64,000 nucleotides of DNA from Lachnospiraceae bacterium oral taxon 500 (GTDB lineage Bacteria; Bacillota; Clostridia; Lachnospirales; Vallitaleaceae). Location of the stretch: contig CP027241.1 of the NCBI GenBank assembly GCA_002999035.1, positions 1,615,001 to 1,679,000 of the forward strand. Direction: 5' to 3'. The position numbers and the translations under genes were made by a program. This document shows positions 22,401 to 35,318 of this stretch, piece after piece. Position 1 is the first letter of the stretch. The number at the start of each line of letters is the position of its first letter. A model generated the notes under the pieces. The model was not told where the DNA came from. It did not search any database and was given only the letters and a program-made list of their open reading frames with translations.

Positions 22401-22537
22401 TTTCAACATCAGGATATTAAAATATGAAAATTAAATAATGGATAAAGATAAGCAGATAGAAAATTATTAAAGAAAATCTATCTGCTTTTCTTATGCCCGA
22501 AAATACAAAAATCATAAATCAAAAGGAGCGAAAAAGA

Positions 22538-24181
22538 ATGGAAATCAAAAGTTTGCATACCCATGTAGATATTGTTACAAGGTCAAAGGGACATAGCGTA
22601 ATTGCAAAAGCTGCATATAATGCAAGAGATAAATTACAAGATGAATACTATGGAAAAACACATGACTATTCTAAAAAAGAAGACCTTGTATTTTCAAAAA
22701 TCTTTCTGCCGGAACATATCCCAAAAGAGTTTTCAAACAGAGAATACCTATGGAATAGTGTTGAAAAAATCGAAAAAAGTAAAAACTCACAACTTGCAAG
22801 AAATCTACTCTTTGAATTGCCAAGAGAATTAAATGAACAGAACAGAATAAAGTTAATCAGCGAATTTATAGAAGAAAACTTTACTTCGAAAGGTATGATA
22901 GCGGACTGTAATATTCATAATCCTATGGCAAGCGATCATGAAGAACAACCACACGCACATATCTTACTTACCCTAAGAGAAATGGATAGTGAGGGAAAAT
23001 GGAAACCGAAATGCAGAAAAGAATATATCCTTGATGAAGACGGAGAAAAGATAAAACTGAAAAGCGGAAACTATAAATCAAGAAAAGTAAACTTAAATGA
23101 TTGGAACGAACCTGACAAAGCAAAAGAGTGGAGAGAAAACTTTTCAAAAAAAGCAAACGAATATTTAGCAAGGAACAACATAGCTAAAAGGATAGATCCA
23201 CGCACCTTTGAAGAACAAGGCAGAGAAGAACTCCCGCAAATCCATTTAGGAACAAGCAGTTACCAAATGGAGAAAAAAGGCATACAGACAGAAAGAGGGA
23301 ACCAAAACAGAAAAATCATCGCCTTGAATTTAGAATTTAGAAAATTAAAAGAGGAGCTATCCAAACTTACAGCTTGGATAGGCTCGTTACTTGGAAGTCT
23401 GCAAGTAAAATATGATGAATACAAACAGGAGAAAAAAGAAGAATATGAGAACAAGGCGGAACTCTTTAATCTCTATGAGTACATCAGTATTTATTATGAC
23501 TTACAGGGAGAAAAAGCAAGAAAGCTAAACCCCTATGTAAGCAACAAAAAGATAGGTGCAGACTTAAGACGATTTTCAAAGGCAAGAATATATCTGAAAG
23601 ACAATAACCTTAAAACCATAGCAGACCTACAAGAAAAGATAAGCACATTACAATCCCAAAATAAGAAGATTAGTCAAGACATCAAAGTCAAAACCCAAAG
23701 AATAGAAACACTTCATCAGTGCCTTGTCTATGCAGACATCATCAAAGCAAACAGAAAGGTTTATGAGGAGTGGAAAGGTAAAACCTTTTTGTTCAAAGAT
23801 AGCTTCTACAATGTCCATCAAGAGGAAATCGACAAATACCAAAGAGCAAAAGGACGGATTGAAAAACTAAGCGGTGAAAGTGCCTTAAAGCCAAAGAGTT
23901 GGAAGAAAGAGATTGAAAGCCTTGAACAAGAGATAAAGAACTTAAACCGTCAATCTCAGCGAATAAAAGACGAATACGAGCAAATCAATCATATCAAGTA
24001 TGCCGTAAAAACCGTCAATGATGATTATGGAATAGACCTATCCATTGAGATTGATAAGGCAGTCAAGAGAGGAGAAAAACCGAGTGTCATTGCTCAGATT
24101 AAGAAGTACCAAGAGCAACAAGAAGCCTATGAAAAACGAAAGGAAAGGACAAAAGATTATTACAGGAATGAGGAAAGATGA
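22538..24181 (+). CDS. MobA/MobL (MobQ) relaxase
   Basis: 547 residues. The N-terminal relaxase domain (to about 230) contains the candidate catalytic Tyr27 in AAYNARDKL and the metal-binding HUH pair His139 and His141 in QPHAHILLTLR. The long C-terminal half is coiled coil and basic. It nicks oriT and pilots the strand through a helper channel such as that of ICE1 or ICE2. Start set at the second ATG because AAAAGGAGCG precedes it; the upstream ATG (22493) lacks a site. The oriT-like sequence lies immediately upstream. Confidence 0.9.
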   Translation: MEIKSLHTHVDIVTRSKGHSVIAKAAYNARDKLQDEYYGKTHDYSKKEDLVFSKIFLPEHIPKEFSNREYLWNSVEKIEKSKNSQLARNLLFELPRELNEQNRIKLISEFIEENFTSKGMIADCNIHNPMASDHEEQPHAHILLTLREMDSEGKWKPKCRKEYILDEDGEKIKLKSGNYKSRKVNLNDWNEPDKAKEWRENFSKKANEYLARNNIAKRIDPRTFEEQGREELPQIHLGTSSYQMEKKGIQTERGNQNRKIIALNLEFRKLKEELSKLTAWIGSLLGSLQVKYDEYKQEKKEEYENKAELFNLYEYISIYYDLQGEKARKLNPYVSNKKIGADLRRFSKARIYLKDNNLKTIADLQEKISTLQSQNKKISQDIKVKTQRIETLHQCLVYADIIKANRKVYEEWKGKTFLFKDSFYNVHQEEIDKYQRAKGRIEKLSGESALKPKSWKKEIESLEQEIKNLNRQSQRIKDEYEQINHIKYAVKTVNDDYGIDLSIEIDKAVKRGEKPSVIAQIKKYQEQQEAYEKRKERTKDYYRNEER

Positions 24182-26480: not shown

Positions 26481-29400
26481 ATGCGAATCAATGATTTTCA
26501 TAACATTTTGGAGCTTGTAAAACAGGATATTTTGCAAAGTGAAGCGGAATATTTAAAGCTCCTAAAGGTTGTCGGAAACAATCAACGATATGATTTTAGA
26601 AGTCAGTTAAGTATCTATGATAAAAATCCGGAAGCAGTGGCTTGTGCCAAGTTCGATTATTGGCGTGAACGCTTTCACCGAACTGTTATGCGAGGACAAA
26701 AAGGGATTCCGATTTTAGAGGACTACGGCACATACAAAAAGGTTGACTACATTTTTGATGTAAGTCAAACCGTTTCAAGGAACAGAGATGTTAATGAGGT
26801 CAATCTTTGGAAATTTGATAAAGAAGCTCATCAAGATGTCTTAAAGGAAATGATAGCAAGTGAAGGCTATGAAGAAAGCGAAAGTAACCTTGAAAATATC
26901 TTTTCTTTAAGCAGAATTTACGGTGATGAAAAGATAGACAGCCTGATGAATGAGCTTAGAATCGCCGATGAGGACAGCATATCCTTTGTCAAATTTGTAA
27001 GGGATTCCATCAGCTATGCGGTAGCTTCAAGATTTAAGATGGATTATCCGATGGATAAGGAGCTGTTAAGAGAAAATTTCAAAAGACTGGACAGCATATC
27101 CATTATGAGTCTTGGTGAAACCGTATCGGATATTAGCGGAAATATTATAGATACAACCATTCAAAAGAGCAAAGAGATAGAGCTTCAAAAAGGAGTTTTA
27201 AGAAGCAGAGAAGCAGGATATAATAAGATTAGAGAAGAAATTGAGAAAGGAGATAACCATGTACTTCGACGAGATGATCAGGAAAGAATTAGTGAAACAG
27301 AGCGAGTTCTCCGAAATGGAGAGTACGGACGAGATAGCAGGCAAAATCAGGGAGAATACACTGAACAGTTTGGAGGAACAGACGGAATTCATCGAGAAAT
27401 ATCCCAATCCGACCTACGCAGTGATGAGGCTGGATTATCTTTCACAGAGCGAGGAACAGAGCCGCTTCGAGATGTTAGTGGATCTATACAAGGAGAAGAA
27501 GCTGACAGAACACCTGATGGACATTCAGAAACAGGCGATAGCATTTATGAGAACAGAGAAGCCGAAACTGATGGAAGCTTGGAAAATAGAGAGCGAGGAA
27601 AGTCCTCAGTATGGAGCGATGATTTCAGCCCTGAAGGAAATGACCATCAAGGAAATCGTGGAAATCTAAAAGAAAATACCGAATCAGAGATAAGAGAAGC
27701 GGACGAGGCTTCTTTTTCTTTGCCTGAAAATGCTTATGGACAACTGATCCTGACTATTCCTCTTAGTCAAAAGGAAAAAGATGTGTTCTTGATCAACGGA
27801 GGAAATCATGATGGCGGCAGACTTCCTGTTATCGCCGAGTTTTCTAAAGGAAAAAGCAATGAAGAATTAGGAGAATACCTTAAAAACACTTTTCAAGGGG
27901 GAAACGGCTATATCATTGACGGAAATGAAATCTCAGCGTGGTATTCGGATAAGGGGATTCATTTTGCTTCCGGAACATCGGCAAGAGAGGATCATACGCA
28001 GGTTTTAAGTTGGAGTGATGCTGCAAGTAGGATAAATGAACTTCTTAATAGCGGAGAGTTTGCCACAAATGTGGAGCTGAAAGAAGCCTTAGACTATGAA
28101 AGAGATCGGATTTCAGAGTCCCTATGGTATCTCATTCACGATTTGAGTGAGGAAGGAAAAGAACAAGGCTTTTTTGAATTTCTCGAAAAGGGAGGTGGCT
28201 TTCCGGATGAAACAAAACGATTATCCGAGGCACTGAAAAATCCTGAATACCTAAAGGAAACAATCAAAGAATATGATAGATTTTTAGCAGGATACAAAGA
28301 AAACAGAGATATACTAAGGTTTCACTATCATAAGGTGGACAGCCTTTATCAGAAGTTACAGGAGCTTGCACTGCCAAGAAAAGAATATACTTCTAATCTT
28401 ATTGAACTTCCGATAGTGAATGCCTTTATTACGGAAGATGAAGTCCTTGCTACCCTTTCAAGGGGAAGCGGAATTGATAGAGGAAAAGAGCGAATTACAA
28501 AGTTTTTCAAAGAAAATCACACTTTACAGGAAAAAGCCAACTTTTTAAAAGATGAGTATGGAACAGGAGGAAGAAGCCATGCGGTATCAGGCTTGACAGG
28601 TAGTGGAGAATGGCACGATGCCAAAGGAATAAAACTGGAAAAGGATAATTGTAAAGATGTGTTTCTTACTTGGTCAAGCGTGGCAAAGCATATTGATGAG
28701 CTGCTTTCTAAAAATCTTTATCTTGAAGAAAAGACGGTAGAGGAAAAGAAAGCGGAAGATCAGAAACCAAGCTATTACTCGAAAGATAATCCCGAAAACC
28801 TGATGACTGAGGAAATGCTGAAAAGAGTACCGGAGCTTTATGCACAGGAAGATGTGGAGTTAGCGGATAAGGAAGTTCATGCAGCATATATCATTCCTTT
28901 CCGTTCTAACTGGACTTGGTATATGACAGAGTACGACAGAGAAAGCGGTGATGCTTTTGGTCTTGTTTTAGGGATTGAACCTGAATGGGGATATTTTAAC
29001 CTTGAAGAATTAAAGGAACTTAATGCTGAGAGGCTTATCTTGGAAGATTTTCCAAAGACTTTTCGAGAAATCAAAGATACCGAGCTTGTAAAACAGATGA
29101 GCGAGGAAGAAATAGACCGAGTATTTAACGGACAGCTTTCCTCAAAAGATAATCATAAGGAACAGGAAATTTTTTATCTTAGTGATAAAATGGGAATTTC
29201 CTTAGAAGAAGCCGAGGGTATTATCAACGATAGGAGCAGGTTGTCAGGGGTTAGTACAGAGAATACAAACAACAAAGATAATTTACTTGATGAAAAAAGT
29301 CCTGTTCAATCTACCCTATTTGACTACATTCAGCAAAAAGAAGAAGTAGAGCTGAATGAAAAAGAAGAAAGTCTTGCAGAACAATTTGCAGTGAAACAAG

Positions 29401-32400
29401 GTGATACCGTATATTTTGACCATGAAGCATATATCGCAAGGGATATTGAAAAAAATAAGGTAAATGGAAAACCGGAGGTATGGCTTTATCCGGCAAGAGA
29501 TGGGAATAGGCAAATTGCAATCGTACCGTTTATGGATAATGAGGATCTGTTAAGAAAGATAAGCCTTGAAAGACCGAGCTTTTTAGTTGGCGATGAAGTG
29601 AAATACAAGGATAAGGACTGTACTATCACACGCTTTGACAATATGGGAAACAACTTAAAGACGGTAACGGTTAAGGATAATACCGAATATCTTGGAGGCA
29701 TGATAACAGGCTCCGATGTCATTCCCTATCGTTTAGAAAGCGATCTTGATCGAATATTTGAAAATCTGACATACACGAAAGCTAAAGATACGATTCAAGA
29801 TATTGATGAAAAGGCAGAAAAACCTAAAATAGAAGCTCATAACTTTAAGATTACCGAAGAAATCCTCCCTGAAAAAATAACGCCAAGTGAAAGGTTAAAC
29901 CAAAACCTTGAAGCAATCTCCATGCTTAAACGAGTGGAGAGTGGACAAAGAGAGCTTGACAATACAGCTCAGGAAGTCTTGGTAAAATATGTCGGTTGGG
30001 GCGGATTATCTGAAGTATTTGATGAAGACAGAGGTGGTCAATGGAAAGAAGCAAGAGCATTCTTAAAAGAAAATCTATCGCCATCAGAATACGAAGCTGC
30101 TAAGGAATCAACCTTAACAGCTTTTTATACGCCTAAAACAGTCATTGACAGTATCTACTCTACCCTCTCAGGAATGGGTTTTAAGAGTGGTAATATCTTA
30201 GAGCCGTCAATGGGCATCGGAAACTTTATCGGCAATCTTCCTGATGAAATGAGTGAGTCAAAGTTTTATGGCGTGGAGATTGACAGTATAAGCGGTCGCA
30301 TTGGAAAACTCCTTTATCCGGAAAGTGATATACAGATTAAAGGATTTGAGGAAACTTCCTTTTCCAATAACTTCTTTGATGCGGTGATTGGAAACGTGCC
30401 GTTCGGAGAATACAGGCTCAATGACAGAGAGTACAACAAAAATAACTTTCTTATCCACGATTATTTCTTTGCAAAATCCATTGATAAGGTAAGAAATGGC
30501 GGTGTTATCGCCTTTATCACATCTTCAGGTACGATGGATAAAAAGGACGAAAGTGTTAGACGATACCTTGCAGCAAGAGCGGGGTTTTTAGGAGCAATCA
30601 GACTTCCGAACGATACTTTTAAGGGTGTTGCCGGAACAGAAGTAACCTCGGATATTATCTTCCTAAAGAAAAGGGACAGTATCAGAGAGCGTGAGGAGGA
30701 CTGGATACATCTATCTGAAGATGAAAATGGTCTGACATATAACAAATACTTTGTAGATCATCCTGAACAGGTACTCGGCACAATGCGTGAAGTATCAGGC
30801 AGATTTGGAAATACCCTTGCTTGTTTGCCAAAAGAAAATACAGACATAAAGGAACTTCTTACAAAAGCAAGCGAAGAAATTTCTAAAGATGCTAATTATG
30901 AAGAAATAGAGCTGCTTGATGATGAAATCACATCTATCCCTGCCACAGATGATGTCAAAAATTTTTCATATACTATCATTGATGACGAAGTGTATTACAG
31001 AGAAAATTCCCTTTTTGTAAAGAAAGAGATAATCGACAAAAATAAGGAAAAGATTAAGGACTATCTTGAACTGAATACTGCCCTTAAAGATGTTATCTAC
31101 AAGCAGAAAGAGGACTATTCCGATGACGAAGTGAAAAAAGCTCAGGAAAAGCTCAATGAAGTCTATGACGGTTTTTCAAAGAAACATGGCTTTGTAAATA
31201 ACCTTTCCAATACCAGAGCCTTGAAAGAGGACAGTAACTTCCCGCTTGTTTCCTCCATTGAAATCCTTGATGAAGAAGAAAACTTTAAGGCAAAGGGAGA
31301 TATTTTTTCAAAAAGAACAATAACAAAGGCAAAGACAATCGAACATGTAGATACTTCCCTTGAAGCCCTTGTCTTATCTATGTCTGAAAAAGGTTATGTG
31401 GACTTTGACTATATGGAAAGCTTGACAGGAAAAGAGCGACCTACTTTGATTGAGGAGCTTCGAGGAGAAATCTATCTAAATATCAGAGAGGAGCAAAACT
31501 TTTACAGACCGATATCCTTTAACTTGGAAGATGGGGATTTACCTTTCGCCTGTGCAAATGGCAGCAATTCATATAAGTATGGCTATGTTACAAAGGACGA
31601 ATACCTATCCGGAAATATCAGAGAAAAGATTACCATCGTAGACAGTTATCTTGCAAAGTTAAGACAGACGGAACGGGAACTACCTCATCTTGGCTATGCG
31701 GAAGATGGCAAAGAAAAAGAGCTGATAAGCTATGAGATGAACCGTTTGGAATATCAAAAAGCTGAACTTACCAAAGTATTACCGAAAGAGCTTGAAGCAA
31801 GTGAGATTAGTGTTCGTCTTGGTGCTACTTGGATACCGATGAAGGATATTGAAAAATTTATCTTTGAAACACTGAAAACTCCGGGTTATGCCAAATGGGA
31901 TATTAAGGTTAAATTTTCAAATCTTACAAGTGAATGGAATATTGAAGGAAAGAGCAGAGATAAGGGTAACGATCTTGCAGAAATGACCTATGGAACATCA
32001 AGGGTAAACGGATATAAGCTGATTGAAGATGCCTTAAACCTTAAAGAAACGAAAGTATTTGACCAGATTGAAAATCTGGATGGCTCGAAAAGTTCTGTAC
32101 TAAATAAAAAGGAAACTCTCCTTGCAGGACAAAAGCAGGAGCTTCTAAAAGAAGAATTTAAGAACTGGATATTTAGCGATCAGGAAAGAAGAAACAGACT
32201 CGTAAAACTGTATAATGAGCGTTTTAACTCTATCCGAAATCGTGAATATGACGGAAGTAATCTCTCTTTTGAAGGAATGAATACGGAAATCAAACTCAGA
32301 CCACACCAAAGAAATGCCATTGCACGAAGTTTGTATGGAGGAAATACCTTGCTTGCCCATGTGGTGGGAAGCGGAAAGACCTTTGAGATGGTCGCTTCCG

Positions 32401-35318
32401 CAATGGAAAGTAAAAGGCTTGGAATGTGCAGTAAATCTCTCTTTGTTGTACCGAATCACCTAACAGGACAGATTGGCAGAGAGTTTATGCAGCTTTATCC
32501 GTCAGCTAACATTATGGTGGCGGATAAAAAAGACTTTGAGCCGAAAAACAGAAAAAGATTTATCGGCAAAATTGCAACAGGCGAATATGATGCGGTTGTA
32601 ATCGGTCATACGCAATTTGAAAAAATCTCGATGTCAAAAGAATACCAAGAGAAGCATATTCAGGATCAGATTGATGAAATTTTGAACTATATTGAGGAAT
32701 ATAAGCACGACAGAAACCAAAATTTTACGGTTAAGCAACTTGAAAAGACCAAGAAAAAACTGGAAGCAAGGCTTGAGAAACTAAACGATGATTTTAAGAA
32801 AGACGATGTCATTACTTTCGAGGAACTTGGTGTAGATAAGCTTTTTGTGGACGAAGCACATGGATTTAAGAATTTGTATCTTCATACAAAAATGCGTAAT
32901 GTTGCAGGAATCGGGCAATCGGAAGCCTTTAAGTCCTCCGATATGTTTATGAAATGCAGATACATGGATGAGATGACAAACGGGAAAGGTATTGTCTTTG
33001 CCACAGGGACTCCTGTATCAAATTCCATGACAGAGCTTTATACTATGCAGCGTTATCTTCAGTATGAAAACCTAAAGAAAAATCACTTGGAGCATTTTGA
33101 TGCTTGGGCAAGTACCTTTGGAGAAACTCAGTCCGCCTTTGAACTTGCTCCTGAAGGAACAGGATACAGAGTGAAAACAAGATTTTCCAAGTTCTACAAT
33201 CTGCCTGAGCTGATGAGTATGTTTAAGGAAGTGGCTGACATTCAGACCGCAGATATGCTTAATCTTCCTACACCTGAAGCTAATTATGAAGTTATTAAGA
33301 CTGAGCCGTCTGAGGAACAAAAGGAAATTCTAAAGAGCCTTTCTGAAAGGGCAGATGATGTAAGAAATAAGGTTGTTGAGCCTGATGTTGATAATATGCT
33401 TAAAATTACCAACGATGGTAAAAAGCTTGCCTTAGATCAGCGTTTAATCAATCCCCTACTTCCTGATAATCCTGACAGCAAGGTGAATGTTTGCGTGAAA
33501 AATGTCTTTAGTATTTGGGATAAGACAAAAGATGATAGGTCAACACAGCTTCTATTTTCCGATATGTCCACACCGAAAGGCGATGGAGAGTTTAATATCT
33601 ATGATGATATTCGAGAAAAACTTGTAGCTATGGGCATACCGAAAGAAGAAATCGCCTTTATCCATGAAGCTAATTCAGATAAACAAAAAGATGAACTCTT
33701 TGCAAAGGTGCGAAAAGGAGATGTGAGGATATTACTCGGTTCAACACAGAAAATGGGAGCCGGTACAAATGTTCAAAACAAGCTGATTGCACTTCATGAT
33801 TTAGATGTCCCTTGGCGTCCAGCGGATTTAGAGCAGCGTGCGGGTAGAATTGTTCGTCAGGGAAATGAAAATAAGGAAGTGAATATCTATCGTTATGTAA
33901 CGGAAAATACCTTTGATGCCTATTTGTGGCAGACCATAGAGAATAAGCAGAAGTTCATTTCTCAGATTATGACAAGTAAAACACCTGTCAGAGTGGCAGA
34001 AGATGTGGACGAAAGTTCCCTTAATTATGCAGAGATTAAAGCACTTGCCACAGGTGATCCGAAGATTAAGGAAAAGATGGATTTGGACAATGAGGTTACG
34101 AAACTTAAAATGCTGGAAGCAAACTTCAAGTCCAATCGTTATAGATTAGAGGACAAGGTTGCTAAAAATTATCCGGAAGAAATCACAAGAACGGAAAAGC
34201 TGATTGAAGCTGTAAAGAAAGATATAGCTGATGTAGAGCCGCAAGGAGAAGGCGAAAATAAATTTACTTCCATTACCATTTTGGGAGAAAAGATTACTGA
34301 TAAGAAATTAGCAGGAGAAAAGCTCCTTGAAGCCATTTCTAAAGTAAAACTCAATGAAAGCAAAGTCATCGGTCAGTATCGAAATATGGATTTAGAGGTC
34401 AGTTACAACTTCTTTACCAATGAGCATAACTTCAGCTTAAACGGTGCTGCAAAGCATTCAGGAGAGCTTGGCACAAGTGCAGACGGAAATATCATAAGAT
34501 TGGATAATGCTCTTGAGAAAATGCCTGAGAAATTAAATAGACTTGAAGAAAAACTCATCAGCACCAAAGAACAGCTGGAAAATGCTAAAGAAGAACTTAA
34601 AAAGCCGTTTGAAAAGGCTGATGAGCTGAAAACTAAGGTATTAAGACTTGCGGAACTGAATAAACTGCTTGATATGGGAGAAGTGGAAGAAAAGAGAAAT
34701 GACAATCCTCTTGTGGAAGATGTAAAAAGAGCGATTATTGACTTCTGCAACAGAGAGTATGAAGAAAACCACAGCTATGATGAGTTTGACAAGTTATACC
34801 CTGACTTAAAGCATATCGGGATTGCCTATACCGATACACCGGATGAAAGGCATGGGATTCAGTACGAACTGAATTTAGAAGCTAAAACATGGACACAGTA
34901 TATTGATGATACTCCAATCAAAACAGAGAGCTTCGACTATGAAAACAAGGGAGAAAATGAAGCTCTAAAGAACATGAAAAATGAGATTGAGCTATCCTCT
35001 TTTGAAGATTTGATCTATGTGGATTCCGAAGATTTAAGAGCAGCAACGGGACTTGATATTGATGATGAGGGGAACTTCTACGATCCGCTTGCAAAAGACC
35101 TCGATAATGACGGTATCATCGACAGATATGACAATGATTTCAGGGACAGTGATTACTTTGAATCAACCTATGATGTGGAAGATAATCTTCATACAAAAGA
35201 AGAAACTGCTCAAAGAACAGATGACAAGCCTTCTATTTTAGGACAGATAAGAGCTTATCAAAGTGAAAGCAAAACGGAAGAAAAACAAACTACAAAAGAA
35301 CAGGAATATGCAAGATAA
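26481..35318 (+). CDS. Giant LtrC-like DNA methylase/SNF2-type helicase
   Basis: 2945 residues. N-terminal LtrC-like domain (about 1-130), a low-complexity Gly/Arg/Glu region (about 255-405), two related alpha/beta repeats (about 435-540 and 650-750), a DUF2958-like segment (about 785-865), an N6-methylase-like domain (about 1200-1380, [11 protein letters not shown] and GNVPFG in place of NPPY), and a superfamily 2 helicase (GSGKT near 1963, DEAH near 2123, RAGRIVRQG near 2453). A calcium-loop-like [12 protein letters not shown] lies near 2873. AAGGAGG precedes the ATG. It is probably a conjugal DNA-processing or restriction-evasion protein. The low-complexity region also encodes a separate protein in another frame. 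Confidence 0.88.
27259..27669 (+). CDS. Overprinted gene inside the helicase (TnpV-like)
   Basis: 136 residues in the +1 frame, wholly inside the helicase gene. AAAGGAG (27245-27251) is 7 bp from the ATG. The protein is helical, with [29 protein letters not shown] and a C-terminal [13 protein letters not shown], resembling TnpV-type small proteins (RxxYL, then KL..HL..I..QA). Codons in this frame favour G/C third positions and the overlapped helicase stretch is low complexity, as expected when the inner frame carries the constraint. I am confident that it is a gene and less so of the family. Confidence 0.6.

Follow-up and report, generated by a model that had tools for sequence, protein, structure and literature searches.

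The window, a stretch of 64,000 nucleotides from the 3.2-Mb genome of Lachnospiraceae bacterium oral taxon 500 (contig CP027241.1, positions 1,615,001 to 1,679,000), looks like part of an integrated conjugative or mobilizable element, in which a MobA/MobL-type relaxase gene (22493-24181) accompanies a giant helicase gene. The latter, located at 26481..35318 on the forward strand, encodes a methylase-helicase of 2945 aa with matches to the Pfam families Eco57I, Helicase_C and ResIII and to a DarB-like antirestriction family of PHROG (E=0), and its product is ordered as an N-terminal domain, a disordered linker, an Eco57I-like methylase and a SNF2/DEAD helicase. Upstream of it, a 107-aa ORF at 25553-25876 matches only the C-terminal part of a topoisomerase domain (PF01131 positions 333-410) and, judged by this match, looks like the remnant of a topoisomerase III gene.

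Within the helicase gene, the +1 frame of the same strand harbors a second ORF, which runs from an ATG at 27259 to a TAA ending at 27669, encodes a protein of 136 aa (P0001) and lies wholly inside the 2945-aa ORF, as had been claimed from the letters of the DNA alone (hereafter the sequence-only reading). That reading had also placed a ribosome site before the ORF, and the Shine-Dalgarno (SD) motif AAGGAG is indeed found at 27247..27252 on the forward strand, 6 nt 5' of the ATG; the gene start it gave, 27245, takes in this ribosome site, the coding start being the ATG at 27259. An alternative TTG start at 27241 was judged less likely. Frame conservation, substitution patterns, profile searches and an AlphaFold2 (AF2) model, set out below, point to a nested tnpV-family gene at 27259..27669 (forward strand) with a predicted all-helical product.

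The host frame over the nested ORF (residues 260-397, 27258..27671 on the forward strand) is rich in Gly, Arg, Asp, Glu and Ser and contains 19% hydrophobic residues versus 37% in the remaining helicase, so that the described overlap with a low-complexity stretch of the host is borne out. In the AF2 model of the host fragment, the N-terminal domain (residues 1-258, 26481..27254, forward strand) is folded save for two loops, with pLDDT mostly 70-97 and low-confidence segments at residues 55-74 and 93-111, and everything from residue 259 to the fragment end at 423 has a pLDDT of ~30. The nested protein was modelled with seven helices, a pLDDT of 89 and a pTM of 0.82, in keeping with the helical, well-behaved product that had been foreseen. 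Across 92 unique nested pairs, the mean hydrophobic content was 41% in the inner frame and 20% in the host frame.

The length of the nested ORF was considered as evidence for a gene and dropped. The longest stop-free run in the +1 frame of the helicase comprises 155 codons, and synonymous-codon shuffles equal it in 7.7% of cases (P = 0.08), while the specific nested stretch remains open in 5.3% of synonymous redraws. As the length is not significant alone, the case rests on conservation. These shuffles are what speaks for a chance ORF, in which the low-complexity composition of the host would simply leave the +1 frame open without any protein product; such an origin has next to no probability given that frame, start, SD and inner-frame amino acids are all conserved, that the product has TnpV homologues including stand-alone ones, and that the substitution pattern described below already refutes it.

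A homologue search with one genome per species retrieved 45 loci, all of which (45/45) preserve the inner frame, with protein identities of 63-94%. The upstream SD is present in the loci of this set whose start is not masked by N, two of the 45 (L017 and L043) having runs of N at the start. A reverse search was carried out with the helicase domains as query and no TnpV in the query, and a TnpV-profile-positive ORF was found in the +1 frame of the linker in 74/76 distinct helicases, always in the same relative frame, in a set whose N-domain identities fall as low as the high twenties (in percent). Both frames thus stay open across relatives, in the 45 loci and in 74 of the 76 helicases, as dual coding demands. 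The two exceptions, L150 and L141, lack the Gly/Arg/Asp/Glu linker altogether, their N-domain continuing via a short, different segment; these linkers were read by eye because linker lengths measured automatically by domain profiles were noisy, each profile having several match places. The sequence-only reading had held that homologous helicases with a +1 frame broken by stops would speak against it, and none with a merely stop-broken frame occurs among the 76, the two without the ORF being also without the whole linker. In addition, the linker motif GRLPDSRP, common in these helicases, is the out-of-frame reading of YLIPDLTLP in TnpV.

Which of the two frames is constrained was addressed by the divergence at each codon position in 44 aligned copies. 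Upstream of the overlap, divergence at host positions 1/2/3 was 0.106/0.074/0.307, and downstream it was 0.161/0.133/0.338, the usual wobble pattern, while within the overlap it was 0.212/0.099/0.077, indicating that the fast position there is inner position 3 rather than host position 3. The comparison of synonymous and non-synonymous change in both frames, which had been proposed as a check, drew on 31 independent close pairs from several clades, in which isolated changes were classified. It gave 276 changes that leave the inner protein as it is but alter the host, versus 67 that alter the inner protein and are silent in the host (binomial p about 5e-42), besides 14 silent in both frames and 114 silent in neither. 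The ratios of observed changes to the site expectation were 2.73 for inner-silent, 0.53 for host-silent, 3.33 for both-silent and 0.48 for neither. Rough dN/dS values were ~0.16 in the inner frame and ~0.82 in the host linker, the latter being calibrated on just 14 doubly silent changes. Identity of the inner protein exceeded that of the host in all identity bins above 10%.

Purifying selection is therefore detected in the nested frame by both codon-position divergence and substitution classes, and the view that the selective constraint sits in the inner frame is supported by these sequence comparisons and by the predicted structures, which agree with the proposal of overprinting with inner-frame constraint. 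The same counts bear on whether the inner frame might be a relic, once a real tnpV gene and now open solely through constraint on the host linker. The divergence of the P0001 branch from canonical TnpV, with 23-27% identity to the copies in L143 and L120, would fit such a relic; recent changes in close relatives nevertheless spare the inner protein and alter the host freely (276 versus 67), which makes this history highly unlikely.

The resemblance to TnpV that had been suggested holds as remote homology through profiles and intermediates, but P0001 alone does not reach the Pfam gathering score. The proposed profile search gave a match of P0001 to Pfam TnpV (PF14198) of 18.6 bits (E=0.0019), below the gathering score of 27 bits. 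TnpV profiles built without P0001-like rows score P0001 at 15-21 bits, the best of 2000 shuffles reaching 10-12, and the same profiles score the intermediates L116, L120 and L122 at 23-79 bits. Strongly matching intermediates share 47% and 27% identity with P0001, linking it to Pfam-positive TnpV, and profile-profile comparison (hhalign) of the P0001 side with TnpV yielded E = 8.7e-5, yet a probability of just 60%. Moreover, P0001 shares its genomic slot with Pfam-positive nested TnpV, in the same linker and the same +1 frame. Its profile matches and intermediates place P0001 in the TnpV family, as a divergent member with remote homology.

A second, diverged giant helicase (L143) is located ~46 kb downstream in the same genome and outside the window, at about 1,686,585-1,696,734 of the contig. 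It carries its own nested tnpV at the equivalent position and in the same +1 frame, and the product of this ORF passes the TnpV cut-off (59.8 versus 27 bits). The spacing of the two giant helicases suggests two related elements close together. A further protein on the same contig, encoded at about 1,740,656 (L144), differs in architecture; its similarity to the helicase is to the first part of the N-terminal domain, and it has no nested tnpV.

The start of the nested ORF was fixed by alignment in the window's own group. Of the 92 nested starts, 77% are preceded by a perfect 6/6 SD at proper spacing, where the corresponding rate among the 3438 other ATGs of these regions was 0.6%; the former figure is inflated because starts in distant loci were partly picked by SD strength. 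An in-frame stop occurs within 30 codons upstream of the nested start in 85/92 cases (within 5 codons in 46/92), at a median of 6 codons. Programmed frameshifting, by which the inner ORF would be made as a part of the helicase instead of by internal initiation, could draw on the window itself, where the inner frame is open for 19 more codons 5' of the ATG; with a strong SD before the nested ATG and an in-frame stop a few codons upstream in most relatives, it is very improbable. Internal initiation is hence the natural reading, and the nested 136-aa protein is probably made.

Taken together, a genuine dual-coding locus, in which the helicase gene contains a nested tnpV-family gene, is the favored reading of the sequence comparisons and structure models, with a probability of roughly 0.93. 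The helicase mRNA would be translated in its own frame to give the giant methylase-helicase, while ribosomes would also initiate at the internal SD and ATG (27247-27261) to give a separate helical TnpV-family protein of 136 aa. Over the shared DNA, the helicase frame would supply a flexible linker between the N-terminal domain and the rest of the protein, which explains why this frame tolerates almost any residues. Production of TnpV would in this way be coupled with that of the helicase via one transcript. The nesting is a characteristic of this helicase family in mobile elements of Bacillota and not peculiar to the element in the window.

The PF14198 survey of 259 genomes revealed 56 loci. 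In 29 of them tnpV lies within a long ORF, always in the same relative frame; the other 27, of which 3 are broken and one is cut by a contig end, are not nested in this way. L092, counted at first as stand-alone, runs to the contig end and is probably nested. Stand-alone tnpV homologues exist in this survey, so the absence of homologues encoded alone, which had been named as a finding that would count against the gene, does not apply. In L006, L014, L024 and L044 the nested ORF is intact, but the helicase frame stops far short of full length somewhat downstream; these may be interrupted helicase copies retaining tnpV, since snf2 has been reported as a hot spot of integration.

How the arrangement arose is a separate matter. 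In the most likely history, a tnpV gene would have ended up within the helicase gene, the read-through in the other frame becoming the linker. Such an engulfment, which stands at about even odds, would explain the joint presence or absence of linker and nested gene. A broader proposal, to which we give somewhat less than an even chance, is an obligate gene-within-gene helicase family, in which tnpV was engulfed early, the linker is only the out-of-frame reading of tnpV, and TnpV is co-produced and needed for transfer or excision. The reverse direction rivals the engulfment history alone and leaves dual coding untouched: the nested state would be ancestral, and stand-alone tnpV genes would be escapes from decayed helicases. 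Nested forms dominate and are found on either side of the midpoint root of the TnpV tree, which covers nested and stand-alone copies and requires at least 6 changes of state, and some helicase frames terminate soon after an intact nested ORF. On the other hand, two relatives lack both linker and tnpV, and stand-alone tnpV adjoins recombinases in unrelated small elements, leaving an ancestral nested state plausible at a little under even odds. An attempt to read a rooted history from the trees was dropped, as the nested/stand-alone tree and the N-domain tree, in which the tnpV-less L150 sits on a long branch with unsure placement, do not fix the direction.

With regard to function, stand-alone tnpV genes adjoin serine recombinase genes in small elements such as Streptococcus phage phiNJ3 and a Campylobacter plasmid. 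In Campylobacter coli pCOS502 (L207), the stand-alone tnpV at 2597-2941 shares 4 nt with the end of the serine recombinase gene, a hint that tnpV and the recombinase may be functionally linked. For TnpV of Tn4451, a role in excision was postulated from homology with lambda Xis, according to the passage on it in PMC3158075. A search of the PDB and viral structures with the model of the nested protein returned no match at E<0.001, and a sequence search of the PDB with the nested protein gave chance matches only. The predicted all-helical fold and the lack of a PDB match at E<0.001 do not support a Xis fold for the P0001 branch, the modelled protein being that of the window and not canonical TnpV. 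The neighborhood of stand-alone tnpV genes and serine recombinases suggests that TnpV, made from the helicase transcript, could assist the element in excision or transfer as an accessory factor, a role that we put forward tentatively and regard as possible rather than probable.

The sequence-only reading had expected annotation software to discard the nested gene. In plasmid records for which the gene table is incomplete, the Anaerococcus and S. suis helicases lack an annotation of the nested gene, which is the usual omission, whereas records of Monoglobus and Cohnella list the nested TnpV and omit the overlying helicase; L137 and L140 are two annotated plasmid records with this reverse omission. 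In this widespread class of mobile elements, annotation thus overlooks a gene that is conserved. Long, fully nested gene pairs on the same strand of bacterial DNA are often doubted and rarely proven ancient. The pair described here is conserved in many Bacillota families, combining a strongly constrained short inner gene with a nearly free segment of a long gene. The nesting would account for the puzzling low-complexity linker of the giant helicases and offers a clean system for studying how overprinting starts and what role TnpV plays.

No account of tnpV nested in a helicase gene was found in the literature search, which was confined to open-licence papers. The host gene resembles the SNF2/methylase giant helicases of Bacillota ICEs (DarB-like, PHROG 10089; "snf2" of the ICESa2603 family) in domain content and ICE context. 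The passages on snf2 of streptococcal elements in PMC12942858 and PMC9815147 treat it as a gene and integration hot spot, and these passages mention no gene within it. The nested product is connected by profile chains with the TnpV family (PF14198; tnpV of Tn4451/Tn4453), small proteins of mobile elements, from which the P0001 branch differs in its acidic helical N-terminus. Furthermore, tnpV has been described as an ordinary stand-alone gene, for example in Tn4451 and Tn6104-6106 (PMC3158075), whereas here it lies wholly within the helicase gene. Overprinting of p22 and p19 in tombusviruses (PMC11044054) likewise yields two proteins in different frames from one stretch of nucleic acid. Different from the viral pair, the present one belongs to bacterial mobile elements and has been conserved in many families of Bacillota; its constrained frame is the short inner one, and the segment of the long gene serves as filler.
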